From NCBI GenBank assembly GCA_024655965.1, contig JANLFL010000003.1:186001-250000 (forward strand): DNA of 64,000 bases, read 5' to 3'. The translations under genes were made by a program, and so were the position numbers. Shown one piece after another: positions 42,401 to 61,694 of the stretch. Source of the stretch: Caldisericota bacterium. GTDB taxonomy: Bacteria; Caldisericota; JANLFM01. Each line of letters starts with the position of its first letter. The stretch's first letter is position 1. The notes below the pieces were generated by a model. That model was not told the origin of the DNA. It ran no database searches and was given only the letters and a program-made list of their open reading frames with translations.

Positions 42401-42895
42401 GCAATCGAGAGGGTTAAAAAAGGGGAGGAGCTGCTTCTTCCTTCCGAAGAGCGTCCGGTAATTGAAATCGGGGTTAACGCCTTCATTCCTTCGGATTACA
42501 TGGACCCGGAAAGTAAAATTGAATTTTACGAAAAACTGGCAAGTTTAAAATCAAAGGAAAAATTGAATCTGTTAAAAGCTGAAATGCGGGACAGGTTTGG
42601 ACCCATTCCCCCTCCCTCCGAACTCTTATTTAAAGTTGTTGAGGCGCGCGTACTCTGCGAAAGGATAAAAATAAGCAAGGTAGTCCGCGAGGGAAACCTC
42701 CTGGTTTTTTACTGGAAAGAGGAACCCTATTTTGATCCCCAGAGACTCGTGATCCTTTCCCAAACTTTCCCCCGGCGGTTAAAGATTAAAGAGGATCATT
42801 TCTATTTAAGGCTGGAAGGCGAGCATGATGGAGAGATGGTCGATTTTGTGCTAAAAGTTTTAGGTATCCTTGAAAAGGAAGGGGGGCAAGCTTGA
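39440..42895 (+). CDS. mfd: Transcription-repair coupling factor
   Basis: VGDYVVHQTYGIGIYQGL, VCGDVGYGKTEVAIRAAF, IDEEHRFGV, QLYQLRGRVGRSD. Confidence 0.98.
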   Translation: MNLFRVFHPGTSLISYLKERPQRGSILLGKVLQGYFPFLLGILREEFKSPVLALYSQEDDLEKGFLLLKALGFPVFKFPGFQGYLGEKSPLDPAIRGERISTLRAIKSEKNPVVLSKVKSILQLTPPPEYLEKFSLKLKKGSQYPWEELLGYLNQIGLQRVPRVEQLGEYSVRGGIIDVFTPSNDLPLRFEFLGDELNSIRIFDPETQVSREEIEETVLLPWRLFEVKEERLIDLEEAFKIQIEKLKRDRKFSEARFLSQTFMRDLEYLKKGISFLEEDYYLPFFARNSFLWEHLPSDFILICEEKSRISHAFEEFLNSSRRIYQEALDRGEQVPYHSGIFFKWEEFQEELESRRAVFCTPFSSRVELPLEAPPPLPQFADLSLQLRSWLNSGKTVLFAGKGARRYRGLLEGEGISFQEVSSFREEVSSESPIIWDFPLPSGFVNSASGLVVLSDFELFGWKKRTFAESKYKQAKAVSSAEQLQVGDYVVHQTYGIGIYQGLQTLNIDGVSRDYFKIAYAGEDKLYIPSDQVFLIQKYLGDSVKLPPLTRLNTTEWARTKKKVKESVEKVAQELLQIYAKKETSFPEPFFPLEPWETDLSQSFPYEETPDQAQTIADVLRDLERGKWMDRLVCGDVGYGKTEVAIRAAFRTVSGGKQVAVLVPTTILCQQHFNTFQERMKGFPVRIGVLSRFKSPREQNMVIKGLKEGKVDIVIGTHRLLSEDVRFKDLGLLIIDEEHRFGVLQKEKIRKIKGSVHVLSLSATPIPRTLQMSLLGIKDTSVMETAPQNRYPVKTFVTEFSDDLIKKAILYELNREGQVYFVHNRIQALPRLYGKLGELVPQARIGIAHGGMPEERLEQVMWDFAQGEYDVLLCTTIIESGIDIPRANTLIVADAHNLGLAQLYQLRGRVGRSDVRAYAYFLYPKSRALSEEAEKRLQTIRDFSQLGTGMKIALKDLEIRGAGNLLGKEQHGFMLQVGFQMYREMLEEAIERVKKGEELLLPSEERPVIEIGVNAFIPSDYMDPESKIEFYEKLASLKSKEKLNLLKAEMRDRFGPIPPPSELLFKVVEARVLCERIKISKVVREGNLLVFYWKEEPYFDPQRLVILSQTFPRRLKIKEDHFYLRLEGEHDGEMVDFVLKVLGILEKEGGQA

Positions 42896-44109
42896 AAAAT
42901 ATTTTCTGGGTGACCGAAAATCTGGCTTTCTCTCCCCAGGTGATTCCCGAGGATTTCCAAGATTTATTTCGGGATGGGATCGGGGCAGTAGTTTCCCTCA
43001 CGATCTCTCCCTTGAATAAGGAGGATTTTCCGGGGTTTGAACTCTTCCACCTGCCAATGGAAGAAAAGGTCCCCTCTCTTTCCCAGATCCAGGAATTCCT
43101 TTCGTTCCTGCGCTTGATGAGGACCATGAAGCGGAAGGTATTAGTGCATTGCTACGCAGGCCTTGAAAGGAGCCCGACAATGGTCGCCTCATACCTCATA
43201 AGTTCGGGAATGAAACCTCAAGAAGCCATTTCCCGGATAAGATATCTCCGTCCGGAGGCCATAAACCAGGAGGAGGAACAATTCTTGAACGGTCTACCCT
43301 CCCTCCTAAAATTCGATTGCCCAAAAGATGGTGAATCGTTTGAAAACCTTCTCCAGGTGATGAGGACCCTGCGAAAAAAATGTCCTTGGGATAAGGAGCA
43401 ATCCCACCAGAGCTTGGCAAAATACCTGATCGAGGAATCATGGGAGTTGCAATCAGCGATAGGAAGTGGGGATCCGGAAAAAATAAAGGACGAGCTGGGG
43501 GATGTCCTTCTTCAGGTCGTTTTCCACGCAGTAATCGGTGAGGAAAGCGGGGATTTCACTGTTTCCGATGTAATTTACCATTTAATTGAAAAGTTAGTCC
43601 GCCGTCATCCCCATGTCTTTTCCTCCCAGGCTTCCCTCACCCCCGATGGGGTAAAAAAGCAATGGGAAGAATTGAAATCGGAGGAGGGAAGATCGGGGCA
43701 AGAGAACAGGAGAAAATACATGCCCGCCCTCCTTCGCGCGGAAAGAATCCAGGAATCCGCCTCCGTAAATGGCTTCGATTGGGAATCCCCATCGGGAATC
43801 CTGGAGAAATTCCGGGAAGAGATGGGAGAATTGGAAGCTTTACTTGAAGGGAAAGATACAGAAAGGATGCGGGAAGAAATCGGGGACCTGCTATTTACCC
43901 TGGTCAACCTTTCCCGCTTTTTGAAGATCAACCCTGAAGAGGCCCTTCACCTGGCCACGGATAAATTCCTTGAAAGGTACGAAAAGGCCAGACGAAAGAT
44001 CCAGGAAAAGGGGCTCAAACCCAGCAACCTTTCCCCGGAGGAAATAGATGGTTTTTGGGAAGAAACGAAAAGAGAGGACCCAGCTCGAGACAAACATAAG
44101 GGCGAATAA
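42892..44109 (+). CDS. Fusion protein: N-terminal dual-specificity/tyrosine phosphatase-like domain + C-terminal MazG NTP pyrophosphohydrolase
   Basis: CX5R loop VHCYAGLERSPTMVASYLI, then MazG LLQVMRTLRKKCPWDKEQSHQSLAKYLIEESWEL, DELGDVLLQVVFHA, second MazG repeat EEIGDLLFTLVNLSRF; one uninterrupted ORF. Confidence 0.9.
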   Translation: MKNIFWVTENLAFSPQVIPEDFQDLFRDGIGAVVSLTISPLNKEDFPGFELFHLPMEEKVPSLSQIQEFLSFLRLMRTMKRKVLVHCYAGLERSPTMVASYLISSGMKPQEAISRIRYLRPEAINQEEEQFLNGLPSLLKFDCPKDGESFENLLQVMRTLRKKCPWDKEQSHQSLAKYLIEESWELQSAIGSGDPEKIKDELGDVLLQVVFHAVIGEESGDFTVSDVIYHLIEKLVRRHPHVFSSQASLTPDGVKKQWEELKSEEGRSGQENRRKYMPALLRAERIQESASVNGFDWESPSGILEKFREEMGELEALLEGKDTERMREEIGDLLFTLVNLSRFLKINPEEALHLATDKFLERYEKARRKIQEKGLKPSNLSPEEIDGFWEETKREDPARDKHKGE

Positions 44110-45250
44110 CTTCAACGGTCTTTTCAATTCCCTCGCCCAGAACATGGTCCTTCCTTTCCTGGGGGTTTTCGCCCGGGATTTGGGGGCGAGTTCCTTCCAG
44201 TTCGGCCTCCTGAATGCCCTCCCTTCCGCGGTATCCACAATTTCCTTTCTCCCGGCCCTCCCCTGGATTGAAAGGCAAAAGGAAAAGGTTAAATTCACTG
44301 CCATCCTCACCTTGATCGCCAGAATGTTTTACCCTTTGTTCGCCCTGGCCACCCTTTTGGACAACGGGGTTTACCTTCTCCTCGCCTTTTATGGCTTATC
44401 CGCTCTTCCATGGTCCTGGAGCAGTCTTTCCTGGAAGTCCCTGGTCGGCGATGCCATCCCCGAGGATAGCCGAGACCACGCTTTTTCCCAGAGGAACAGG
44501 CTGGTGGCAATTTCCAGCATCCTTATCACCTTGCTCGCGGGAATGGTCATGGACGCCCTAAAATTTCCCTGGAGCTACCGGGTAGTTTTCCTCGCCTCCT
44601 TCATCTTCTCCCTGGCTGAGGTTTCCTTCCTTTTCCGGATGAAGCCCCTTGTTCATTTAAGCGAGGCCCGGACCACGATTCCCTTGAGGATGATTTTTAA
44701 GGTCAGCCCTGAATACCGAAGGTTCACCATCGGCAACCTGATCTTCCAGATCGGTTACCAGGGTTTATTGCCCCTCTTCACGATTTACACGGTTCAAAAT
44801 TTAAAGGCTACCCCGGGCTGGGTCTCCCTGATCAGCATTGCTTCAGCAATCGGGCAGATCGCTTTTTACCCCTTATGGGCGAAATTTTCCCGGCGATTCG
44901 GCCAGAGGTTGTTGATTTCCCTGGCATCTTTTTTGATGGCTCTCTCTCCCATTTTTTACGCTCTTTCCACCAACCTCCTAAGCCTTGTGATTTTCAATTT
45001 TTTCATCGGCGCTTTCTGGGCAGGTTATTACCTGGTTTCTTTCAATTTTCTTCTCACCGTTTCCCCTTCTGATTCCCGGGAAAGGTACATTGCCATTTTT
45101 AACACTCTGACAAACGCCACCGGCATTTTTTTGCCCCTTCTGGGGGTGGGTCTTTCCAGCCTGATCGGGATCCGGCTGGCCTTTTTAGTTGGCGCGGCCT
45201 TCAGGGCGGGAAGCGGGCTATACCTCTTTCTTAAATTGGAGCGGAAATGA
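44048..45250 (+). CDS. MFS transporter
   Basis: About 12 hydrophobic segments, MFS-like layout (NGLFNSLAQNMVLPFLGVFARDLGASSFQFGLLNALP). Confidence 0.85.
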   Translation: MVFGKKRKERTQLETNIRANNFNGLFNSLAQNMVLPFLGVFARDLGASSFQFGLLNALPSAVSTISFLPALPWIERQKEKVKFTAILTLIARMFYPLFALATLLDNGVYLLLAFYGLSALPWSWSSLSWKSLVGDAIPEDSRDHAFSQRNRLVAISSILITLLAGMVMDALKFPWSYRVVFLASFIFSLAEVSFLFRMKPLVHLSEARTTIPLRMIFKVSPEYRRFTIGNLIFQIGYQGLLPLFTIYTVQNLKATPGWVSLISIASAIGQIAFYPLWAKFSRRFGQRLLISLASFLMALSPIFYALSTNLLSLVIFNFFIGAFWAGYYLVSFNFLLTVSPSDSRERYIAIFNTLTNATGIFLPLLGVGLSSLIGIRLAFLVGAAFRAGSGLYLFLKLERK

Positions 45251-45298
45251 ACCGTTCTGCTATAATCGGGATGTATTGATTGGAAAGGAAGGCTACCC

Positions 45299-46663
45299 AT
45301 GAGCAAAAAACAAAGAGCACGGAAACAAGCAGAACTTGAACGGAAAAAACAACTTAAGTCAAAGGGTTCTCACATTAGCTCCAGGTACCAGAAAATCTTG
45401 AAATGGGTAGGAATTGGAGCGGGGGTGGCGATCGTTATCCTCGCGGTGGTCCTCGGTTTCTGGTATTTTTCCACCAAAAACGTTGTGGCCTACGTTGGGG
45501 GAGAGAAAATTTATCGGGCTGATGTTGACCGCTTGCTTTACTCCTGGCTTTCCCAGCTCAACATTCAGGAAGGGGATATTCAGGTGGGTTCCGAGGAGTG
45601 GAACAACCTCTGGAACCAGATGCGGGAAAGCCTGATTCAGGAAAAATTGGCTCTAAAAGAGGCCAGAAGAAGAGGGCTTGAGCCAAGCCCAACTGAAATC
45701 GATGAGGAAATCAAAAAATTTGAGGAACAGCAAGGGTTGACAGAGGACGAGATTAAGACAAACCTTTCCAAGCAGGGTAAAACCTGGGAGGAGTTTCAAA
45801 ACGCCATGTCGGAGCAAATCCTCAGGCGAAAGATCTACGAGGAGATTACCGGGACTGTGACCGTCACCGCCCAGGATATTGACGATTACTTCAGCCAGTT
45901 CCATAAAAACTACGATCAGACGGAACAGGTGGCCTTGAAATTCATTTTCTTGACCTACGTTCAGACAGTTAATGGAAACCGGAGCGAGGAGGACACGATT
46001 AAACTTGGCCAGGAGCTCATCCAGAGGATAAAAAACGGTGAGGACTTTGGGGAGCTGGCAAAGCAGTACTGCGAAGATAACACGGTCAAAAATAAATCCG
46101 GGGACCTCGGCTTCATTGAAAAGGATGATTATGTGGGAGCCTTCGGGGAACAGTTCCAGGAGACCGCTTTTTCCCTCAAGGTTGGGGAGCTGAGCGACCT
46201 CGTTCCCGTCAAGAATGGCTACGGTATCTTCTACGTTTACGACCGTAAGGAACCCTATGAGGCCAAACTGGATGACCCATACAAATTCCACTTCCGTCAG
46301 ATTCAGCTGGACGACCGGCAAACGGCAGAGGGCGTCCTGAATAGACTTTCGGAGGGCCAGGATTTTGCGGAATTAGCCAAAAGCACTTCCACCGATACCA
46401 CCACCGCCTCCTCGGGCGGAGATATGGGCACCATTGAAAGGAATAACCTAAAAAAATGGCAATTGGACGCTCTCTGGGGAATGTCCCCGGGGTCAATTTC
46501 CGGGATCATCGAAACGGATGGCAAGTTCTACATCCTCAACCTGGTTGAGGTGAAAACCATAAAGGAGGATATTCTCGATACTTTGACCGAGAAGAAGAAA
46601 ACGGAAGCCTGGAATAAATTTATCGAAGAATTGAAATCCCAGGTGGAAATCGTAACCCTATAG
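45299..46663 (+). CDS. Membrane-anchored PpiC/parvulin-type peptidylprolyl isomerase (PrsA/SurA-like)
   Basis: Single N-terminal TM; SurA-N-like region; rotamase segments (FGELAKQYCEDNTVKNKSGDLGFIEKDD; FAELAKSTSTDTTTASSGGDMGTIERNNL). Confidence 0.9.
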   Translation: MSKKQRARKQAELERKKQLKSKGSHISSRYQKILKWVGIGAGVAIVILAVVLGFWYFSTKNVVAYVGGEKIYRADVDRLLYSWLSQLNIQEGDIQVGSEEWNNLWNQMRESLIQEKLALKEARRRGLEPSPTEIDEEIKKFEEQQGLTEDEIKTNLSKQGKTWEEFQNAMSEQILRRKIYEEITGTVTVTAQDIDDYFSQFHKNYDQTEQVALKFIFLTYVQTVNGNRSEEDTIKLGQELIQRIKNGEDFGELAKQYCEDNTVKNKSGDLGFIEKDDYVGAFGEQFQETAFSLKVGELSDLVPVKNGYGIFYVYDRKEPYEAKLDDPYKFHFRQIQLDDRQTAEGVLNRLSEGQDFAELAKSTSTDTTTASSGGDMGTIERNNLKKWQLDALWGMSPGSISGIIETDGKFYILNLVEVKTIKEDILDTLTEKKKTEAWNKFIEELKSQVEIVTL

Positions 46664-46782
46664 AGAAATGAAAAAAACCCTGTATAATTTTTTTGCGGAA
46701 AATCAGGGTTTAAGGAGGTGAGGATATTAAAATTTTCTTAATGAGTTTAGGAAATTCTCAATTTTAAAAAAGGAGGTTTGAA

Positions 46783-48432
46783 ATGAAGAAGTTCCTGATT
46801 GCTGTGTTAACATTGGCCCTGCTTCTGCCCCCCGCCATCTTGCCGGTAATTGCTCAACCTGCACTTTCTGACATTTCGGGGCACTGGGCTGAGGCCACCA
46901 TCCTCAAATTAGTCGAAAAGAACTACATCTCCGGTTACCCTGATGGGACTTTTAAGCCCAACAACACCATTACCAGGGCGGAATTCGTGAAAATTTTGAC
47001 CTCGGTAATGGGCATTGCCCCTGCTACGGGGGGAGAGTCTGCTTTTTCTGATGTTAGCACCTCAGATTGGTTCTTCGGCTTTGTCTCCGCTGCGGTAGAG
47101 AAAGGGATCATTGGAGGGTACCCCGATGGCACCTTCCGTCCCAACGATCCGATAACCAGGGAGCAGGCCGCCAAGATCGTGGTCCTCGCCAAGGGGATCG
47201 ATCCTGCTGAAGTCGATACCGAGTATGTCTTCGAGCATGCAGGCAATTTTGTCGATAAGGATGGAATTTCCGACTGGGCAAAGCCCTTCGTGGCCGCCGC
47301 AGTTGAGAAAGGTATCATGAAAGGTGACGCCAACAACGCTTTCCGCGCCACCGAAAACATTACCAGGGCTGAGACCGCGGTAATCGCTTACCGCGTCATG
47401 CCCAAAGCCGGTATTAAGGTAGGTCTGGTCACCGACGTGGGCGGCCGCGGCGATAAGTCCTTCAACGATTCCGCTTTACGCGGACTCGAGGACTGGGCTG
47501 CGGGATGGGCCCTTGAAACCGTTCCCGCCGACCTCGCCAATGTAGGAATCACCTCCCTGGATGTAAACCCGGTGATCGTTGAGTCCAAGGCAAACGAGGA
47601 CTACGTCCCCAACCTGACCAAGATGGCCGCCGATGAGAAGTGCGACCTGGTAATCGCCGTGGGCTTCATGCTCACCAGCGCGGTACAGGAAGTCTCTGCC
47701 CAGTTCCCCGACACCAAGTTCATGCTGATCGACGGCGTAATCACTGACGAAAATTTCAATGTCCTCGATCCCTATCCCGCAAACGTGGTTTCCTACACCT
47801 TCAAGGAGCACGAGGGTTCCTTCCTGGTGGGTGCGCTGGCAGGTTATATGACCAAGAACAACATCGTGGGCTTCATCGGGGGAATGGAAGTCCCGATCAT
47901 CAAAAAGTTTGAAGCCGGATACAAGGCCGGTGTAATGACCGCTAACCCCGATGCCCAGGTGCTCGTGGGCTACACCGGAAACTTCACCTCCGCTGACGAC
48001 GGGAAAAAGCTTGCAGTGGCCCAGTTCGGGCAGAATGCGGACATCATCTTCGCCGCTGCCGGCGCCTGCGGAATCGGCGTGATCGAAGCTGCCAAGGAAA
48101 AAGGCGAGGGCTACTTCGCCATCGGCGTTGACTCCGACCAGGACTACATGGCACCCGGTCGGGTCCTCACCTCTATGATCAAACACGTTGACCTTGCGGT
48201 TTGGCTGGCTTGCAAATCGGTCATCGACGGGACTTTCCAGGGTGGAATCGTTGACCTCGGTGTGAAAGAGGGCGGCGTCAACCACAGCCTTCTTACTTAC
48301 ACCAAGGACATTATCCCCCAGGAAGTTTTGGATAAAGTTGCAAGAATCCGCGACATGATTGCCAGCGGCGTTATCGTTGTCCCTGACACTCTTGAAAAGT
48401 TAGCTGAATTCAAGGCCCCTGCCATTCCGTAA
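46783..48432 (+). CDS. SLH-domain (x3) + BMP/PnrA-like substrate-binding protein
   Basis: Signal peptide; SLH repeats (LSDISGHWAEATI...YISGYPDGTFKPNNTITRAEF; FSDVSTSDWFFGF...IIGGYPDGTFRPNDPITREQ; ...ITRAETAVIAYRVM); BMP domain from VGLVTDVGGRGDKSFNDSALRGLE. Confidence 0.93.
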   Translation: MKKFLIAVLTLALLLPPAILPVIAQPALSDISGHWAEATILKLVEKNYISGYPDGTFKPNNTITRAEFVKILTSVMGIAPATGGESAFSDVSTSDWFFGFVSAAVEKGIIGGYPDGTFRPNDPITREQAAKIVVLAKGIDPAEVDTEYVFEHAGNFVDKDGISDWAKPFVAAAVEKGIMKGDANNAFRATENITRAETAVIAYRVMPKAGIKVGLVTDVGGRGDKSFNDSALRGLEDWAAGWALETVPADLANVGITSLDVNPVIVESKANEDYVPNLTKMAADEKCDLVIAVGFMLTSAVQEVSAQFPDTKFMLIDGVITDENFNVLDPYPANVVSYTFKEHEGSFLVGALAGYMTKNNIVGFIGGMEVPIIKKFEAGYKAGVMTANPDAQVLVGYTGNFTSADDGKKLAVAQFGQNADIIFAAAGACGIGVIEAAKEKGEGYFAIGVDSDQDYMAPGRVLTSMIKHVDLAVWLACKSVIDGTFQGGIVDLGVKEGGVNHSLLTYTKDIIPQEVLDKVARIRDMIASGVIVVPDTLEKLAEFKAPAIP

Positions 48433-48445
48433 ACAAACCTTTTTG

Positions 48446-48480
48446 CGGGAGATGGGGGAAACCCCATCTCCCGTTCTTTT
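48446..48480 (+). terminator. Strong intrinsic terminator-like hairpin between binding protein and ABC ATPase
   Basis: CGGGAGATGGGG-GAAA-CCCCATCTCCCG (12-bp perfect stem) followed by TTCTTTTT. Confidence 0.9.
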
Positions 48481-48506
48481 TAATTTGAGTTCGCAAAGAG
48501 GTGATC

Positions 48507-50036
48507 ATGGCTGTCGCACTGGAGTTGAAAGGAATTACCAAGAGATTCCCCGGGGTTCTGGCTAATGATCATATCGATTTAACCATTAACGAGCAGGAAG
48601 TATTTGCCATCGTCGGGGAAAATGGGGCGGGGAAGACCACCCTGATGAACATCATTTATGGCCTATATCAGCCCGATTCAGGGAAAATTTTCGTTCGGGG
48701 GAAAGAGAGGAAAATCCACGGACCCGGGGATGCGATCTCTTTGGGAATTGGCATGGTGCACCAGCATTTCATGCTGGTCCCCGTTTTCACGGTCGCTGAA
48801 AATGTGGTCCTGGGAACTGAACCCACAAAATATGGAGGAGTCCTCGACCTGGATAGGGCAAGGAAAGAAGTGAGGGAATTCTCCGAAAAATTCGGCATGA
48901 AGATCGACCCCGACGCCCGGGTGGAACACATTTCCGTTGGTATGCAACAGAGGGTGGAAATTCTCAAAGCTCTCTTCCGGGGAGCGGAAATCTTGATCCT
49001 TGACGAGCCAACTGCCGCCCTTACTCCCCTTGAAACCCAGGAACTTTTTGAGACCATCCGGTCCCTGAAAGCTCAGGGCAAGACTGTAATTTTTATTTCT
49101 CATAAGCTTCAGGAAGTACTGGCGATAGCCGACCGGATCGCCGTTTTAAGGGGGGGAAAAGCGGTGGGAGTGGTGGACGCCAAAGAAGCCACCACTACCC
49201 AGCTGGCCAGGATGATGGTGGGAAGGGATGTGATTTTAGAGTACGAAAAGGCCCCTCCCAAATTGGGGGACGTCCTCCTTGAGGCCAGGAACCTCGTTGC
49301 CCAAAACGACCGGGGGATTACTTCTTTAAAGGGGGTTTCCTTCAAACTTCGGGCCGGGGAAATCCTGGGAATTGCCGGGGTTGAGGGAAACGGACAGGCG
49401 GAATTGGTGGAGGTCCTGACCGGTTTAAGGAGCCCCGTTTCAGGGGAATTAATTGTCAAAGGGAAGCCTTTCCGCTATGCCGATGCCCGTATCCTTCGGA
49501 ACACTGGAATGGCTCACATCCCCTCCGACCGTCATAAACTGGGTTTGGTATTAAAATTCGACGTAGCCGAGAACCTCATTCTGGGGATGCATCATTCTCC
49601 TCCCTTTGCCAGGGGGAATGGAATTAATCGGGAGGAAGTGGAAAGATTTGCCCGAGAAAAAGTGATGGAATTCGATATCCGTCCCCACGACCATCGCATT
49701 CTTGCTTCCAAACTCTCCGGGGGAAATCAACAGAAGGTGATCGTCGCCCGGGAAATATCCGCCAAACCCGAGATCATGATCGCCTCTCAACCCACCCGGG
49801 GGCTGGATATCGGGGCTACGGAATTTGTCCACAAACAACTTTTGAAGGAGCGGGACAGCGGAAAAGCCGTCCTTCTCGTTTCCCTTGAACTCGATGAGAT
49901 CCTTTCCCTTTCCGATCGAATCGCCGTGATGTATGGTGGGGAAATAGTTGCTGCCTTCGATTCCAAGGAAGTTTCCGAAGAAGAAATTGGCCTTTATATG
50001 CTTGGCGTGAAAAGACAGGAGGCCGTCTATGTCTGA
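48507..50036 (+). CDS. ABC transporter ATP-binding protein (two ABC domains; nucleoside/BMP type)
   Basis: VGENGAGKTTLMNIIYGLYQPDSG, IGMVHQHFMLVPVFTVAENVVLG, LSGGNQQKVIVAREISAKP. Confidence 0.95.
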   Translation: MAVALELKGITKRFPGVLANDHIDLTINEQEVFAIVGENGAGKTTLMNIIYGLYQPDSGKIFVRGKERKIHGPGDAISLGIGMVHQHFMLVPVFTVAENVVLGTEPTKYGGVLDLDRARKEVREFSEKFGMKIDPDARVEHISVGMQQRVEILKALFRGAEILILDEPTAALTPLETQELFETIRSLKAQGKTVIFISHKLQEVLAIADRIAVLRGGKAVGVVDAKEATTTQLARMMVGRDVILEYEKAPPKLGDVLLEARNLVAQNDRGITSLKGVSFKLRAGEILGIAGVEGNGQAELVEVLTGLRSPVSGELIVKGKPFRYADARILRNTGMAHIPSDRHKLGLVLKFDVAENLILGMHHSPPFARGNGINREEVERFAREKVMEFDIRPHDHRILASKLSGGNQQKVIVAREISAKPEIMIASQPTRGLDIGATEFVHKQLLKERDSGKAVLLVSLELDEILSLSDRIAVMYGGEIVAAFDSKEVSEEEIGLYMLGVKRQEAVYV

Positions 50037-51342
50037 GAAGATGGAAAATCCCAATAGCGCTGCCCTCGCATACCCCAAGTACAAGAGGTTTACCTACGAG
50101 CGAGTGGTTGATTTCCTCGTTCCCGTAGTCTGTATCATCCTTGGTTTTTTGGTGGGTATGATCTTGATCGCCATCGCCGGGAAAAGCCCGATCGGGGCTT
50201 ATTACGCCCTTTTTAAAGGGGCGTTTGGAAGCCTGACAAACATCTCCGAATCCCTGCTGAAGGCGGCAATTTTAATTTTCACTGGTTTATCGGTAGGGCT
50301 CGCTTTTCGCTGTGGCCTGTTCAATATCGGAGCGGAAGGGCAATTCATGGTGGGGGCAATTTCCGCTGCCTTCATCGGGCACTGGGTCTCCCTTCCTCCT
50401 TATCTCCACATTCCCCTGGTCTTTCTTTTCGCCGCGCTGACCTCCGGAATTTGGGGTTTAATCGCCGGTTGGTTAAAAGTCACAAGGGGAGTGCACGAGG
50501 TCATTTCCACCATCATGCTCAACTGGATCGCTTATTACCTGATCCAAAACTGGCTGGTCACCGGACCCATGGCTGTAAAAACGACCTCCACCCAGATCGT
50601 GGTATCGGAAGCCGGGACACCTGCAATTTACTCTTCCGCAAAACTCTGGAGGTTCCTGGCTGAACCACCCAACAGCGTGGGGCGAATTGCCCTGATTGTC
50701 ATAGTATTCCTCGTTTCCTTTTTCGCCCTTTTTCTCATTCTTAAAAGAGCAAAAAAGTTGGGGGCTGGAACCTGGTTATTCTCCTTACTGGGCTCTTTAG
50801 GGATTGCCGGAATTAGCGGTTTTTTCATTTACCAGTGGCATTACGGGATTCCCGGGGTGCGTTTGAACATTGGGCTGTTCCTGGCTCTCGCTGCGGTTGC
50901 TTTTGTGTTCTGGCTCCTTTACCGGACTGTAGTAGGCTACGAGATTAGAGCTGCGGGATATAACCCCCATGCCGCACGTTATGCGGGGATAAATGTCAAC
51001 AAAAGGATTCTCCTTTCCATGTTCATCGCCGGCGCCCTTGCCGGTTTCGGGGGAGTCTTAATGGTTTTAGGGACCGAATTTAAATTCCCGGGAGTTTTTC
51101 CCGGTGGTTATGGTTTCGACGGAATCGCCATGGCTTTAATCGGCCAGAACCATCCCATAGGGATCATGCTTTCCGCAACACTCTTCGGCTTCATCCGTGG
51201 CGGCGCCACCGCCATGCAACTTCCCCCATATAAGATCCACAAGTCATTCGCCGATATCATCCAGGGATCGGTGGTGCTGTTCATCGCCGCTTACTACATC
51301 ATCAAGTACATTTTGATGCTTCCCGCAAGGAGAAAGGAGTAA
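50029..51342 (+). CDS. ABC transporter permease (NupP-like, BPD_transp_2 family)
   Basis: FRCGLFNIGAEGQFMVGAI, GVHEVISTIMLNWIAYYL, EIRAAGYNPHAARYAGIN, FDGIAMALIGQNHPIGI. Confidence 0.93.
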   Translation: MSEKMENPNSAALAYPKYKRFTYERVVDFLVPVVCIILGFLVGMILIAIAGKSPIGAYYALFKGAFGSLTNISESLLKAAILIFTGLSVGLAFRCGLFNIGAEGQFMVGAISAAFIGHWVSLPPYLHIPLVFLFAALTSGIWGLIAGWLKVTRGVHEVISTIMLNWIAYYLIQNWLVTGPMAVKTTSTQIVVSEAGTPAIYSSAKLWRFLAEPPNSVGRIALIVIVFLVSFFALFLILKRAKKLGAGTWLFSLLGSLGIAGISGFFIYQWHYGIPGVRLNIGLFLALAAVAFVFWLLYRTVVGYEIRAAGYNPHAARYAGINVNKRILLSMFIAGALAGFGGVLMVLGTEFKFPGVFPGGYGFDGIAMALIGQNHPIGIMLSATLFGFIRGGATAMQLPPYKIHKSFADIIQGSVVLFIAAYYIIKYILMLPARRKE

Positions 51343-51345
51343 GAG

Positions 51346-52449
51346 ATGGTTGACCAAATTATCACCCTTTCACTCGCTTCCATGCTCCAATTTGGAACTC
51401 CTATCCTCCTTTCCGCCTTAGGAGGAGTGATCACTGAAAACTCCGGAGTGGTGAACATCGCCCTGGAAGGGTTGATGAGGATGGGGGGTTTCTTTGCCGT
51501 AGTCGGTTCGTATTTCTCAGGTAACCCCTGGATCGGTCTCCTCCTGGGAATAGGGGTTGGCCTGGTGATGGGCCTTCTTCATGCCTACATTTGCGTTACC
51601 TGGAGAGGAGATCAGATAGTATACGGTGTGGCGATCAACATCTTCGCCCTGGGAGGGATGACCTACCTTCTGGAGCGAATATTTAACACCACGGGTCATT
51701 CTCCCTCCGTTCCCTCCTTCGCTCAAGGGGTAAAACTCTCCCCTGAGGTCGCTTTCTGGCTCCTGGTAGCAATCCTTTTGATCTCTTTCCTCTTCATTTT
51801 CCAAGCAATTTTTAGAAAGAACCCGAAGAAACTCCTTTTTTCCGCTTTAGGCACTTTGATAATTGGCTTCCCCCTTTCCTACTTCATTTCCAAGATTGAA
51901 ATCGTCTCCTCCATTTTCTGGGGCGTGATGAACAAGCAGACGGTCTTCGTTTATTTTGCCCTGGTCGTCCCCTTCCTGCTGCATTTTCTCCTTTACAAGA
52001 CCAAGTGGGGATTGCGCATTCGGGCAGTGGGCGAACACCCCAAAGCCGCAGATACCCTAGGTGTGAACATATACCTCGTTCGCTATTTGTGCGTGATCGC
52101 TTCCTGCGTACTTGCGGCGATCTCCGGAGCCTCAATGTCCCTTGGACAACTTGATATTTTCGACAACCACATGCCCGCAGGGAAAGGGTTCATTGCCTTG
52201 GCGGCGATGATTTTCGGGAAATGGAAACCATTGAACACCCTCCTTGCGGTCCTTTTCTTCACCCTCGCTGGAGTTGCGGGAGACGTAATCCAGACCCTTA
52301 CCTCTTCTTACCCCTGGTTGGCTAACATCCCCAGGGGATGGCTTGGTTCTCTTCCCTATATCTTAACCCTCCTTGCCCTGGCAGGTTTCGTGGGGAGAGC
52401 TGTCCCTCCTGCTGCGGACGGAATCCCTTATGAGAAAGGGGAAAAGTAA
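51346..52449 (+). CDS. ABC transporter permease (NupQ-like, BPD_transp_2 family)
   Basis: GTPILLSALGGVITENSGVVNIALEGLM, LRIRAVGEHPKAADTLGVN, MPAGKGFIALAAMIFGKWKP. Confidence 0.93.
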   Translation: MVDQIITLSLASMLQFGTPILLSALGGVITENSGVVNIALEGLMRMGGFFAVVGSYFSGNPWIGLLLGIGVGLVMGLLHAYICVTWRGDQIVYGVAINIFALGGMTYLLERIFNTTGHSPSVPSFAQGVKLSPEVAFWLLVAILLISFLFIFQAIFRKNPKKLLFSALGTLIIGFPLSYFISKIEIVSSIFWGVMNKQTVFVYFALVVPFLLHFLLYKTKWGLRIRAVGEHPKAADTLGVNIYLVRYLCVIASCVLAAISGASMSLGQLDIFDNHMPAGKGFIALAAMIFGKWKPLNTLLAVLFFTLAGVAGDVIQTLTSSYPWLANIPRGWLGSLPYILTLLALAGFVGRAVPPAADGIPYEKGEK

Positions 52450-52464
52450 AAAAAGAAACCACCG

Positions 52465-53199
52465 ATGCCTGCCCTGGTAGGAATTGAAGGCCTAACAAAA
52501 AAATTTGGCCCCCTCGAGGCTTTAAAGGATTTAAACCTTTCAATCCCCGCGGGTGTGACCTTCGGGCTGGTGGGTCCCAACGGAAGCGGTAAGACCACCT
52601 TGATCCGGATCATCTGTGGTCTCCTTCGCCCCTCGTCAGGGAAGGTCACCATATTAGGGAAAACAGTCCCCTTCCCCGAAATGAGGCATTTGATCGGTTA
52701 TATGCCTCAACTTGAAAGCCTTTACCTCGATTTGACCGTGGAGGAAAACCTCTTCTTCTTCGCCTCCCTCTACGGTTTAAAAGGCCCGCGAAAGAAGCAG
52801 AGGATTCAGGAGGTCCTCGATTTAGTCGAGCTTAAAGAGAGGCGGAATTTCCGAGTTGAACACTTAAGCGGGGGGTTAAGGCAGAGGCTTTCCCTGGCTT
52901 GTTCCCTCCTTCATTCACCCCAGCTCCTCCTCCTTGACGAACCCACGGTGGGGATTGACCCTGAACTTCGGTTCTCTTTCTGGGGCTATTTTTCCCATCT
53001 GGCAAAAGGGGGAACCTCGATCATTATTTCTACTCACTACCTGGACGAGGCTTCCAGATGCAAAAAAGTCCTGATGCTCCGGGGAGGAAAAATCCTCGCC
53101 CTTGGTTCCCCGGAGGAAATCCTCTCTCAAACCGGGGAGGGAAACCTGGAGAGGGCTTTTTTGAAGTTGAGCAGGGGGGCGCAAGATGGCCCTGGATAG
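52465..53199 (+). CDS. ABC transporter ATP-binding protein (ABC-2 export type)
   Basis: VGPNGSGKTTLIRIICGLLRPSSG, HLSGGLRQRLSLACSLLHSPQLLLLDEPTVGIDP. Confidence 0.94.
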   Translation: MPALVGIEGLTKKFGPLEALKDLNLSIPAGVTFGLVGPNGSGKTTLIRIICGLLRPSSGKVTILGKTVPFPEMRHLIGYMPQLESLYLDLTVEENLFFFASLYGLKGPRKKQRIQEVLDLVELKERRNFRVEHLSGGLRQRLSLACSLLHSPQLLLLDEPTVGIDPELRFSFWGYFSHLAKGGTSIIISTHYLDEASRCKKVLMLRGGKILALGSPEEILSQTGEGNLERAFLKLSRGAQDGPG

Positions 53200-54277
53200 G
53201 GTTTTCGCCCTGGCACTGCGCATTATCCAGCAGTTTTTAAGGGACAAGAGAACCCTGGCCCTGATTTTCATCGTTCCCGTAGTGGTGATGGGACTTCTCG
53301 CTTACCTCATTTCCTCCCCGAATCAAAACCTGGAAATCGGACTTTCCCTCCCCTCCGGTTTTCCCCTTGAGAAAGTCATTCAACAAAACCTGGAAACCTA
53401 CGGGCTAAAATCCAGGATCATCGCTCAGGAAGAGGCAATCCCCCTTTTGCAAAAGGGGGAAATTCAGGCCGCATTATTCATTCCTCCCGAAGCCCTTAAC
53501 CCTTCATCGCTTAAAGGTGCGGAAATAAAAGTGATCCTTGAAGGAAGCGACCCATCAACGACTTCCCAAATCATGGAAAAATTATCCCTGGCTTTCCGGG
53601 ACCTCATTTCCCAGATCCCCGGAGGAGCTGGTTTCCCCAATCTGGTACCCGAATTTCTCTACGGTGGCGAGGGATTCGATATCGTCGATTACCTGGCCCC
53701 CGTATTCATCTCCTTCTTCGTTTTCTTCTTCGTCTTCCTCCTCTCCGTGGTTTCCTTCCTCCGGGAGAGGACCCGGGGAACGATGGAACGCTTGCTGGTT
53801 TCCCCCATCGAGCGGGGGGAAATTATTTTGGGCTATGCTCTGGGGTTTTTGATTTTTGCCCTGATCCAATCCCTGATCGTCCTCCTCTTCGGGATTTACG
53901 TCTTGGGGATTCAATACCGGGGAAGCCTGTGGCTCGTTTACCTTGTGAACCTTTTCGTTATTTTTGCTGCGGTGAGCCTTGGGATCTTCCTTTCCTCATT
54001 TGCAAGGAACGAATTTCAAGCCATTCAATTCATCCCCATCGTGATTATCCCCCAGGCTCTCCTTTCAGGTTTCTTCTGGCCCGTGGAGCAGCTGGCCCCG
54101 GTCCTCCGGGTTTTCTCCTATGCCATGCCCATGACCTACGCAACCTGGGCCTTGAAAGGGGTAATGATAAAAGGGCAGGGATTCGGGGAAATTCTGGTTT
54201 TTCTGCTGGCCCTCTGCGGTTTCACCATTTTCTTTTTCCTTTTGGCGGGAATTTCCATCAAGCGGGCACCTGAATAA
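53186..54277 (+). CDS. ABC-2 family permease
   Basis: RDKRTLALIFIVPVVVMGLLAYLI, large external loop, FLRERTRGTMERLLVSPIERGEIILGY, IPIVIIPQALLSGFFWP. Confidence 0.93.
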   Translation: MALDRVFALALRIIQQFLRDKRTLALIFIVPVVVMGLLAYLISSPNQNLEIGLSLPSGFPLEKVIQQNLETYGLKSRIIAQEEAIPLLQKGEIQAALFIPPEALNPSSLKGAEIKVILEGSDPSTTSQIMEKLSLAFRDLISQIPGGAGFPNLVPEFLYGGEGFDIVDYLAPVFISFFVFFFVFLLSVVSFLRERTRGTMERLLVSPIERGEIILGYALGFLIFALIQSLIVLLFGIYVLGIQYRGSLWLVYLVNLFVIFAAVSLGIFLSSFARNEFQAIQFIPIVIIPQALLSGFFWPVEQLAPVLRVFSYAMPMTYATWALKGVMIKGQGFGEILVFLLALCGFTIFFFLLAGISIKRAPE

Positions 54278-54289
54278 GGGGGATTTCCA

Positions 54290-55168
54290 ATTTCCTTTTT
54301 TATCAGAAAGGCAAAAGAGGCTGATAGAGAGACGATCCTGGATATCTCTTCCCGGATTTGGGAGGGAGAGGACTACGTCCCCTCTGTATTGGATCAATGG
54401 ATGAAGGATCCCAATTCCGATCTCTGGGTCTTGGAATTCCAGGGGGTCGTTATCTCCTTTTCCCACTATTTGAGGTTTTTCCCTGGATATGTCTGGTTTG
54501 AAGGGCTAAGGACCGACCCTGAATTTCAGGGAAGGGGGGCGGGAAGGGCCTTGACCCTCCATATGGTTCAAACCGCTAAAAAAGAGGGGGCTTCCCGGAT
54601 TGGCCTTTCCCTTTATTCCGGTAACGTCGCGTCTTTGAGGCTCGCTGAATCCCTGGGCTTCAAAAAAAAGGCATCCTTCGTTTACCTCGAGGGTTCACCG
54701 GGGGACCTGCCATCCAAACAAAAAAAATTTAAAATCGTCCCCATATGCCCATTCGAGGTTGGGGATTTCCTCGGTTCTTCCAATTTTCTCTTCATTTCCA
54801 ACGGATACCTTCCTCTGGGATGGCGGTTCGTGCCGCTTTCCTTGGGAAAGGAATTCGCCCTCTCCCAAATAAAAGTTGCCCTGGGAATAATGGAGGGAGG
54901 GGAAATATCATCGCTTCTCCTTTCAAGCGAATTCTCCCAGCCCTATGAAGGCTTTTCCCTGGATTTCCTTGATGGGGAAAGGGAGGAAATGCTTGGCATT
55001 CTCTCCTCCCTCCGGGAGGTGATCGGGGATAGGAAATCTGTGGAGGCTTTCATTCCCAAGTGCGGAAAAAAGGAGGCTCCAGCCCTTTCCCTTTTTCGGA
55101 ACCTCTCCTTTAAAACCTGGGACGATTTCCAGGAGGATGTCTTCGTCCTGGAGCTGGAACTTTCCTGA
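54290..55168 (+). CDS. GNAT acetyltransferase, probable ATT start
   Basis: FIRKAKEADRETILDISSRIWEGEDYVPSVLDQWM continues in frame upstream of the track's ATG; DPEFQGRGAGRALTLHMVQTAKKEGASRIGLSLYSGNVASLRLAESLGF; AAGGGGG 7 nt before ATT. Confidence 0.8.
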   Translation: MSFFIRKAKEADRETILDISSRIWEGEDYVPSVLDQWMKDPNSDLWVLEFQGVVISFSHYLRFFPGYVWFEGLRTDPEFQGRGAGRALTLHMVQTAKKEGASRIGLSLYSGNVASLRLAESLGFKKKASFVYLEGSPGDLPSKQKKFKIVPICPFEVGDFLGSSNFLFISNGYLPLGWRFVPLSLGKEFALSQIKVALGIMEGGEISSLLLSSEFSQPYEGFSLDFLDGEREEMLGILSSLREVIGDRKSVEAFIPKCGKKEAPALSLFRNLSFKTWDDFQEDVFVLELELS

Positions 55169-59583: not shown

Positions 59584-61377
59584 TCACATGGAAAGTCTGG
59601 GCAAAGCCCGAAAAAGGAATACCGCAGTCTGCGCCCGTGAGGCGGGAGAATTGAGACTGACGATGTACTCACCTCCACCCGATCCCGGCGTGGTGATCTG
59701 GGGATAATCCGGGAAGAGGATCAGGCCGTTTATCATTGAAGCCCCAACGTATTGGTAAAACCAATCCTCGGAACCGATCTGGCGGGTGGAAGCGTCAGCG
59801 CCAGAAAGCATTATGTAGGGGGGTGGACCGGGGGGATCCTGAAGGCTCCATTCCCTTGCCCGGACTATGACCGTGAGGACTTCAGCCATTGTGATGTTCG
59901 CATCAGGTTTGAAAGTCCCATCAGGATACCCCTTCACCAAGCCGTACTTGGCAGCTCCCTCTACGTACTGGTAAGCCCAGTGGGTGGAAGGCACATCGGG
60001 GAAGGAAGGGCTGGAATGAGATTCCGGCGCAAGCATTGAACTGAGCAAGGCCATTTTGGCGAATTCCGCCCTTGTAACCGCCAACTCCGGTTTGAAGGTT
60101 CCATCGGGGTACCCGTTGATAATTCCCATAGAGGCAAGTTCCATGATTTCCCTATGAGCCCAAAAAGAGGAGGGAACATCGGGGAAAGAGAGGGGTGGGG
60201 AAGGAGGGGAAGCAGAAGGAGAAAAAGGCGCCGGACCTTCTTCCAGGGCATAAAATATCCCTTCTGCGGTCCCGAAATAGACGGCCTTGTTTTTCCCGAT
60301 TGAAGGAGGGGCGGTAACCGCTGACCCAGCATCAAAAACCCATTTCTTTTCCCCCGAGGATTTCAAAGCATAGAGCTTGCCATCCCCAGAGCCAAAATAA
60401 ATAACCTCCTTGGAATCCACAGTTGCTGCGGAATAAAGGCCGTTCCCTTCGGTGAATTTCCAAATGGTCTCGGAAGTCTCGGGGTTGATTGCGTAAAAGC
60501 ATTTATCCGTGGAGCCCAAATAAAGGGTATTATGAAAACCCACCGCAGGAAGAGAAGTGGCTTTAAATGGTATTTGCCATTTTAGAGAACCATCGGTCCT
60601 CATGCCATACAAATTATTTTGGGTATGCGGATAAGAGATACTATCCGAATCTACGGAAAGGGAAAAGACTGTCCCGGAAAGTGGACAATCCCATTTTCGG
60701 TTTAAGTCCTCGTCAAAAGCAGCAACTCCCCCCTGGTAAGGGACAAGGAGCGTTGTACCGGCATTTGCCATAGCAGGGGGAAATGTGTATCCCTCGGGGG
60801 GTCCCAGGCCTTCCAAGCAGTTGAATGTCCCATCTGCGGTGGAAATTAAGTATAACCTGGGGGCCTTGACCGATTGAGCCAAACCAAAAAAGGTTAAATT
60901 TGGAGACCCGTTCACCGCATCTGGAAGGGTAACATTCCATTTCAAAGTCCCATCGAGGAAGAGGGCAAACATTTGATTGGATGCCCCGAAGTAAATTTCG
61001 TTGCTCCAGGGGGAAAGATACGGGGTAACCCAGAATGAGGCAAGTGGATCACCGGTATGCGTTTCGAAGCTCCACCTCAGGCTTCCCTCCGGGGTGAACG
61101 AATAAAGCGTCCCGGATGTGGTCAAAAAGTAAATGTTGCCTTCCGAGTCTATCACCGGGGTGGAAGTGATTGGGTTTCCCGTTTCAAAAAACCATTTCAC
61201 CCGTGGGAAATCGGGGCCAATTTCGCCCGTTCTACCAGAATGGCTGGCCTCATACATGAAACCAAGCCAGATGGGAAGATCAGGGGAAGCTTCAATCCTT
61301 GTATAGGAAGGTGAAAGGAGAATCAAACAGAAAAGAAGAAATGAACAAAAAACCACCCTCAAAGTAGATTTGCTCAT
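59584..61377 (-). CDS. Secreted PQQ-like beta-propeller protein with C-terminal SLH domains
   Basis: Repeats such as VDSEGNIYFLTTSGTLYSFTPEGSLRWSF and IYFGSGDGKLYALKSSGEKKWVF; SLH repeats FPDVPSSFWAHREI...IINGYPDGTFKPELAVTRAEF and FPDVPSTHWAYQYV...YPDGTFKPDANITMAEV; ATG 61377 with AAAGGAGG. Confidence 0.93.
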   Translation of the reverse strand: MSKSTLRVVFCSFLLFCLILLSPSYTRIEASPDLPIWLGFMYEASHSGRTGEIGPDFPRVKWFFETGNPITSTPVIDSEGNIYFLTTSGTLYSFTPEGSLRWSFETHTGDPLASFWVTPYLSPWSNEIYFGASNQMFALFLDGTLKWNVTLPDAVNGSPNLTFFGLAQSVKAPRLYLISTADGTFNCLEGLGPPEGYTFPPAMANAGTTLLVPYQGGVAAFDEDLNRKWDCPLSGTVFSLSVDSDSISYPHTQNNLYGMRTDGSLKWQIPFKATSLPAVGFHNTLYLGSTDKCFYAINPETSETIWKFTEGNGLYSAATVDSKEVIYFGSGDGKLYALKSSGEKKWVFDAGSAVTAPPSIGKNKAVYFGTAEGIFYALEEGPAPFSPSASPPSPPLSFPDVPSSFWAHREIMELASMGIINGYPDGTFKPELAVTRAEFAKMALLSSMLAPESHSSPSFPDVPSTHWAYQYVEGAAKYGLVKGYPDGTFKPDANITMAEVLTVIVRAREWSLQDPPGPPPYIMLSGADASTRQIGSEDWFYQYVGASMINGLILFPDYPQITTPGSGGGEYIVSLNSPASRAQTAVFLFRALPRLSM

Positions 61378-61694
61378 GTTTACCTCCTTTGAGACATTGT
61401 AAGCCTCAAAGGCCTTAAAAAGCAATTGAATGCTTCAATTTTGGGAAGGATTTAAATATGATTTTGAAAGGCACCATTTTCCTTTGGAAAAAATTGGTCA
61501 TGGTGAACGTTAAAAAGCAAATTGGAGGGAAGCCATCAAGCTTTTTTAAAGGATCTCTTAAAAGCACCAAAAATGGAAAGGGTCAAAAAAATAAGCAAGG
61601 ATTTGTCTTAATTTTTTTGGGGGATTAAGACCTTTTTCATAAATTTTTACTGGTGGAAATTGTGGTGTGAGCTGGAGGGAACAAAATCCTCCAA

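Follow-up and report, generated by a model that had tools for sequence, protein, structure and literature searches.

Receptors of ABC importers in cells lacking an outer membrane are deemed to need a lipid or other membrane tether to stay near their permease, and a lipoprotein anchor is indeed usual for proteins of the BMP family, while lying outside the profile that defines the family (PF02608). The closest described members, PnrA/TmpC, BmpA-D and Lbp of Clostridium thermocellum (7x0r), are lipoproteins, and their operons encode a double ATPase and two permeases of the BPD_transp_2 type. SLH domains, on the other hand, bind a pyruvylated wall ligand made by CsaB. In SpaA of Paenibacillus alvei, three residues bind the sugar, namely a Trp, a Gly and the Arg of the TRAE motif (PMC6081394). 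The locus described here shares the binding fold, the pocket residues and the operon composition of PnrA/TmpC, BmpA-D and Lbp; its receptor, however, lacks a lipobox and instead carries an SLH trimer.

The window, a stretch of 64,000 nucleotides from a Caldisericota bacterium, contains on its forward strand an open reading frame of 549 residues (46783-48432), hereafter SLH-BMP, that joins a signal peptide and three SLH domains to a PnrA/BMP-type solute-binding domain. Pfam recovers the three SLH stretches (PF00395, 1.4e-47) as well as Bmp (PF02608, 2.9e-71), the latter at 240.4 bits against a cut-off of 24.1 and over profile positions 2-299 of 301. With bounds set by a local SLH model, the SLH domains occupy 46867-47001 (Trp35, Gly51, TRAE with Arg65), 47044-47184 (Trp96, Gly112, TREQ with Arg126) and 47248-47385 (Trp165, Gly181, TRAE with Arg195), and the binding domain, matching PDB entries 7x0r, 9q1u and 2fqw and supported by Foldseek, follows at 47413-48429. 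AlphaFold2 with a deeper alignment (36 rows) returned the mature protein at a mean pLDDT of 92.5 and a pTM of 0.87, while a shallower alignment gave a poor SLH part, owing to too few related rows. In the model and the alignment, a linker of only about five residues (MPKAG, 47398-47412) joins the final helix of the SLH part to the strand with which the binding domain begins, whereas in lipoprotein BMP orthologues the Cys typically lies some ten or more residues away from the binding domain.

The start of the protein is well defined. The ATG is preceded by a strong ribosome-binding site, aaaaaaggaggtttgaaATG, and the reading frame extends just five codons 5' of it before it is closed. The signal peptide (46783-46854, residues 1-24) reads MKKFLIAVLTLALLLPPAILPVIA followed by Q and is devoid of Cys; judged by eye, signal peptidase I probably cleaves between VIA and Q. 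No lipobox was found in the N-terminus, as Cys is limited to residues 287, 429 and 477, and a hidden lipobox or a longer N-terminus is ruled out since there is no Cys before 287 and the frame is closed upstream. The original prediction, made from the letters alone, of an SLH trimer fused to a BMP domain behind a signal peptide without lipobox Cys thus holds, being borne out by Pfam, by the exact reading frame and by the presence of the fusion in related genomes. Immediately upstream, at 45299-46663 (+), lies a gene for a membrane-anchored foldase of the PpiC/SurA type, which may aid the folding of exported proteins and whose place is kept throughout the family. Further upstream, a single reading frame at 42892-44109 (+) joins a dual-specificity-type phosphatase (DSPc, 8.9e-13) to a MazG nucleotide pyrophosphohydrolase (3.9e-37).

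To assess the ligand, we compared the binding domain with Borrelia BmpA, for which the nucleoside-pocket residues have been reported (PMC13325309); the numbering of the paper and that of the chain differ by an offset of 6, which fits every pocket residue within the aligned part. In the alignment, Asp98, Phe151, Phe176, Ala200, Val224, Asp225 and Lys242 of BmpA equal Asp317, Phe376, Phe401, Ala425, Val449, Asp450 and Lys467 of SLH-BMP; Phe27 corresponds to Phe227 by motif, and Asp19 is off by one position. The top PDB match, by sequence as well as by fold in Foldseek, is the guanosine-bound receptor 7x0r. In NCBIfam, the nearest models (putative B6 transporter) score far below their cut-offs. 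With the pocket kept and the best match solved with guanosine, nucleosides are the likely ligand, a suggestion that draws on knowledge of the family. Hence SLH-BMP has the profile, the pocket and the operon of a PF02608 protein, but not the usual lipoprotein anchor.

Binding to the wall is similarly plausible, given a CsaB gene in the host and conserved ligand residues in each SLH repeat. The CsaB of the window's genome scores 282.9 bits (cut-off 213.1), although control genomes that lack SLH also give weaker matches to the model, and equivalents of Trp13, Gly29 and Arg43, read against PMC6081394, are present in three of three repeats. SLH-BMP accordingly has what characterizes SLH surface proteins: three repeats bearing ligand residues, a signal peptide, no rival lipid anchor and CsaB in the genome. 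The genome holds about 30 SLH genes, and a second one within the window (59587-61425, -) encodes a PQQ-type beta-propeller with C-terminal SLH, of which there are several alike in the genome.

SLH-BMP is the first gene and the sole receptor gene of its operon, which is completed to a full importer by an ABC ATPase (48507-50036, +) that contains two nucleotide-binding domains, followed by permease 1 (50029-51342, +) and permease 2 (51346-52449, +), both of the BPD_transp_2 type. The gap between receptor and ATPase holds a terminator-like hairpin (48445-48474, +; z -5.24), and stem-loops are found at the corresponding gap in 14 related loci, where the position is kept and the sequence changes. 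This element is likely a partial terminator and suggests that the receptor is made in excess over the pump, which is usual in such operons and not peculiar to the SLH form. A search for Rfam RNAs, including riboswitches, in 44000-54500 returned none. Both permeases carry family-specific inserts, each an extra membrane hairpin, at corresponding places: some 65 residues in permease 1 (50647-50853, +; hydrophobic segments 220-238 and 249-267) and another in permease 2 (51727-51915, +; hydrophobic segments 137-155 and 163-181). The inserts are continuous in all genomes of the family that cover the region (G000-G003, plus G004 from residue 145) and absent from all 14 sister-family genomes aligned (f2, f4 and f5), as well as from the Hakubella and Spirochaete orthologues. 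They also resemble each other, with a score of 59 against 30 +/- 5.5 in shuffles (0/2000), which leave the bias of membrane helices uncontrolled; the likeness appears weaker in other genera.

We then assessed the spread of the fusion. The host belongs to Caldisericota, and the fusion-bearing relatives are placed in one family of that phylum, f1. Full-length SLH-BMP is present in three f1 genomes (G000, G001 and G004), the window's own and two others with proteins 89% and 65% identical to that of the window, and in two further genomes (G002 and G003) it begins and is then cut by contig ends inside the BMP part. The closest named genome is Caldisericota bacterium A05DMB10 (89% identity, full length), followed by Lake Pavin MAGs labelled Coprothermobacterota. 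When the 80 closest loci from named genomes were compared, SLH was present only in the four of f1. In a search of 399 genomes of one Firmicutes-type phylum, with three candidates scored per genome so that distant cases may be missed, none of the top matches listed spans both SLH and BMP, and two long reading frames among these matches contain no SLH on scanning. Thus, as far as can be told from the genomes searched, SLH-BMP is confined to one Caldisericota family. The literature searched likewise yielded no paper on SLH-BMP, nor on any ABC receptor with an SLH fusion, which does not prove that none exists.

The orthologous operon of receptor, ATPase and two permeases is found throughout the phylum and beyond. 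In the other families the orthologues, which share 45-67% identity with SLH-BMP across the BMP part and keep the gene order, start with a lipobox, and the binding-domain tree places the three full-length SLH forms in one clade (98/92) among lipobox forms. Three f5 genomes (L063, L064 and L065) have a lipobox and then an extra stretch before the BMP domain, called CarboxypepD_reg by Pfam in the one genome scanned (L063, G018) and possibly acting as a spacer. Moreover, Cu_amine_oxidN1 domains replace the lipobox in one genome of f5 and in two or more of f4, and these forms fall in two places on the tree (the f4 rows being assigned by sequence). Genomes of f4, the group of Ca. Cryosericum, have a lipobox BMP gene directly beside one for Cu_amine_oxidN1-BMP (L087, G013:C16:24539-27139), two copies of one receptor that differ in their mode of display. 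As the orthologues of sister families sit in an equivalent operon and start with a lipobox or with different N-terminal modules, the lipid anchor was exchanged for an SLH trimer within an orthologous operon. Lipoprotein processing as such is intact, as the other three BMP proteins of the genome all have lipoboxes and LspA is encoded. Congruent with this, the claims that BMP proteins are normally lipoproteins and that SLH takes the place of the lipid anchor gain support from these three proteins and from the lipoboxes (LFAGC, FVGC) of sister-family orthologues in identical operon order.

A second receptor shows a comparable pattern. An OppA-like protein (SBP_bac_5; C22:17104-19236) has three SLH domains in f1, and its orthologues in f2, f4 and f5, 45-51% identical, bear a lipobox; by comparison of the sequences, the exchange of anchors occurred twice in the family, in the BMP and in the OppA-like receptor. 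The SLH modules of both form a single clade (99/97), separate from that of an older, phylum-wide SLH-SBP_bac_5 type (100/99). The SLH modules of SLH-BMP and the OppA-like receptor thus have a shared source. Within their clade, modules from one genus in part group together whichever receptor they belong to, which points to exchange between the two genes.

Aggregated, these data make it reasonably probable, in our judgement, that SLH-BMP is a wall-tethered nucleoside receptor serving its own permease, with localization, ligand and delivery all inferred. The protein would be secreted and cut by signal peptidase I, whereupon pyruvylated wall polysaccharide, produced with the help of CsaB, would bind the SLH trimer non-covalently, leaving the binding domain some five residues from the SLH grip. 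Here it could gather nucleosides in the wall zone and, as the sole receptor of the operon, pass them to the two permeases encoded beside it; this would work if wall polymer chains extend to the membrane face or if the receptor detaches and then rebinds. As regards the altered geometry of delivery that was proposed with the prediction, the extra hairpin of both permeases would be the one indirect hint in its favour. The short linker in the model counts against such tethering, as it would give little reach if the wall polymer is far from the membrane. A tentative extension, to which we assign a rather low probability, is that the importer is docked at the wall as a whole, two receptors having taken on the same SLH module by exchange between genes and the BMP permeases having gained matching hairpins that help them meet a wall-fixed receptor. 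The shared distribution of hairpins and SLH anchor is no proof of a link, since any family-specific change would match; if true, however, the reading would mean that import as a whole has shifted in concert from a membrane tether to a wall tether.

The same observations can be read in other ways. SLH-BMP might be a wall-held reservoir that passes nucleosides on to a lipid-anchored receptor and not to the permease, for which BslK of Bacillus anthracis, an SLH-anchored binder that reportedly passes heme to IsdC (work attributed to Tarlovsky 2010), offers a precedent. The existence of three lipobox BMP proteins in the genome and the receptor excess suggested by the hairpin after the gene agree with such a relay, but the three lipobox genes lie close to permeases of their own, and SLH-BMP is the only receptor in an operon where its orthologues are ordinary lipoprotein receptors, so that we regard a relay as unlikely. 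That the trimer is structural, as an S-layer component or for receptor clustering, with the binding domain a sensor or no longer active in import, is improbable: although the roughly 30 SLH genes make SLH a general surface-display module in this genome, the binding pocket has kept its residues and the full operon is retained across f1. As for a chimera of two genes created by misassembly, nothing was found in its favour, and the occurrence of the fusion in genomes of three genera that were assembled separately, with SLH modules that diverge along with their host genomes, leaves it practically excluded.

A further reading concerns the envelope, on which the literature is divided, leaving that of Caldisericota unsettled. 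If an outer membrane were present, the SLH trimer could tie the receptor to peptidoglycan inside the periplasm, without exposure to the outside. Passages of PMC10628300 and PMC9388160 describe SLH proteins that join the wall to the outer membrane in diderms such as Veillonella and Deinococcus, and the morphology of Caldisericum has been read as double-membraned in a review (PMC7203096). Conversely, no LPS genes were found in Caldiserica (PMC5007114), and Omp85 is absent from the window's genome and from 53 of 54 Caldisericota genomes, including 25/25 of good quality, which fits a single membrane and makes the periplasmic arrangement quite improbable. The sole Omp85 match (G031:C77:939-1802) comes from an 80% complete genome and may be contamination.

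A wall-held receptor on a short linker would put the rule of the membrane tether to the test, raising the question of how it still feeds its pump. Caldisericota offer a natural comparison for this purpose, with one receptor and operon displayed by a lipid anchor, a lipid anchor plus spacer, Cu_amine_oxidN1 domains or SLH. What is new is the SLH anchor on an otherwise known BMP-family receptor; the extra hairpin of its permeases also sets it apart from the PnrA, BmpA-D and Lbp systems. The anchor itself resembles those of SpaA of P. alvei and Sap of B. anthracis in its three repeats, the Trp/GxxxG/TRAE-type motifs and the association with CsaB, yet theirs hold S-layer proteins, while that of SLH-BMP sits on a transport receptor. 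BslK and IlsA of the Bacillus cereus group likewise tether a nutrient-binding domain to the wall by SLH; their NEAT domains, however, have no relation to solute-binding proteins and pass heme on to further proteins of the wall, and they do not serve an ABC operon as its receptor subunit. Comparable in arrangement are the SLH-SBP_bac_5 proteins of Caldisericota (C22, C8 and C42), which also have N-terminal SLH on an ABC receptor, but of the peptide/nickel type: the C22 and C8 types share the SLH module family of SLH-BMP, whereas the old, phylum-wide C42 type belongs to an SLH clade of its own.
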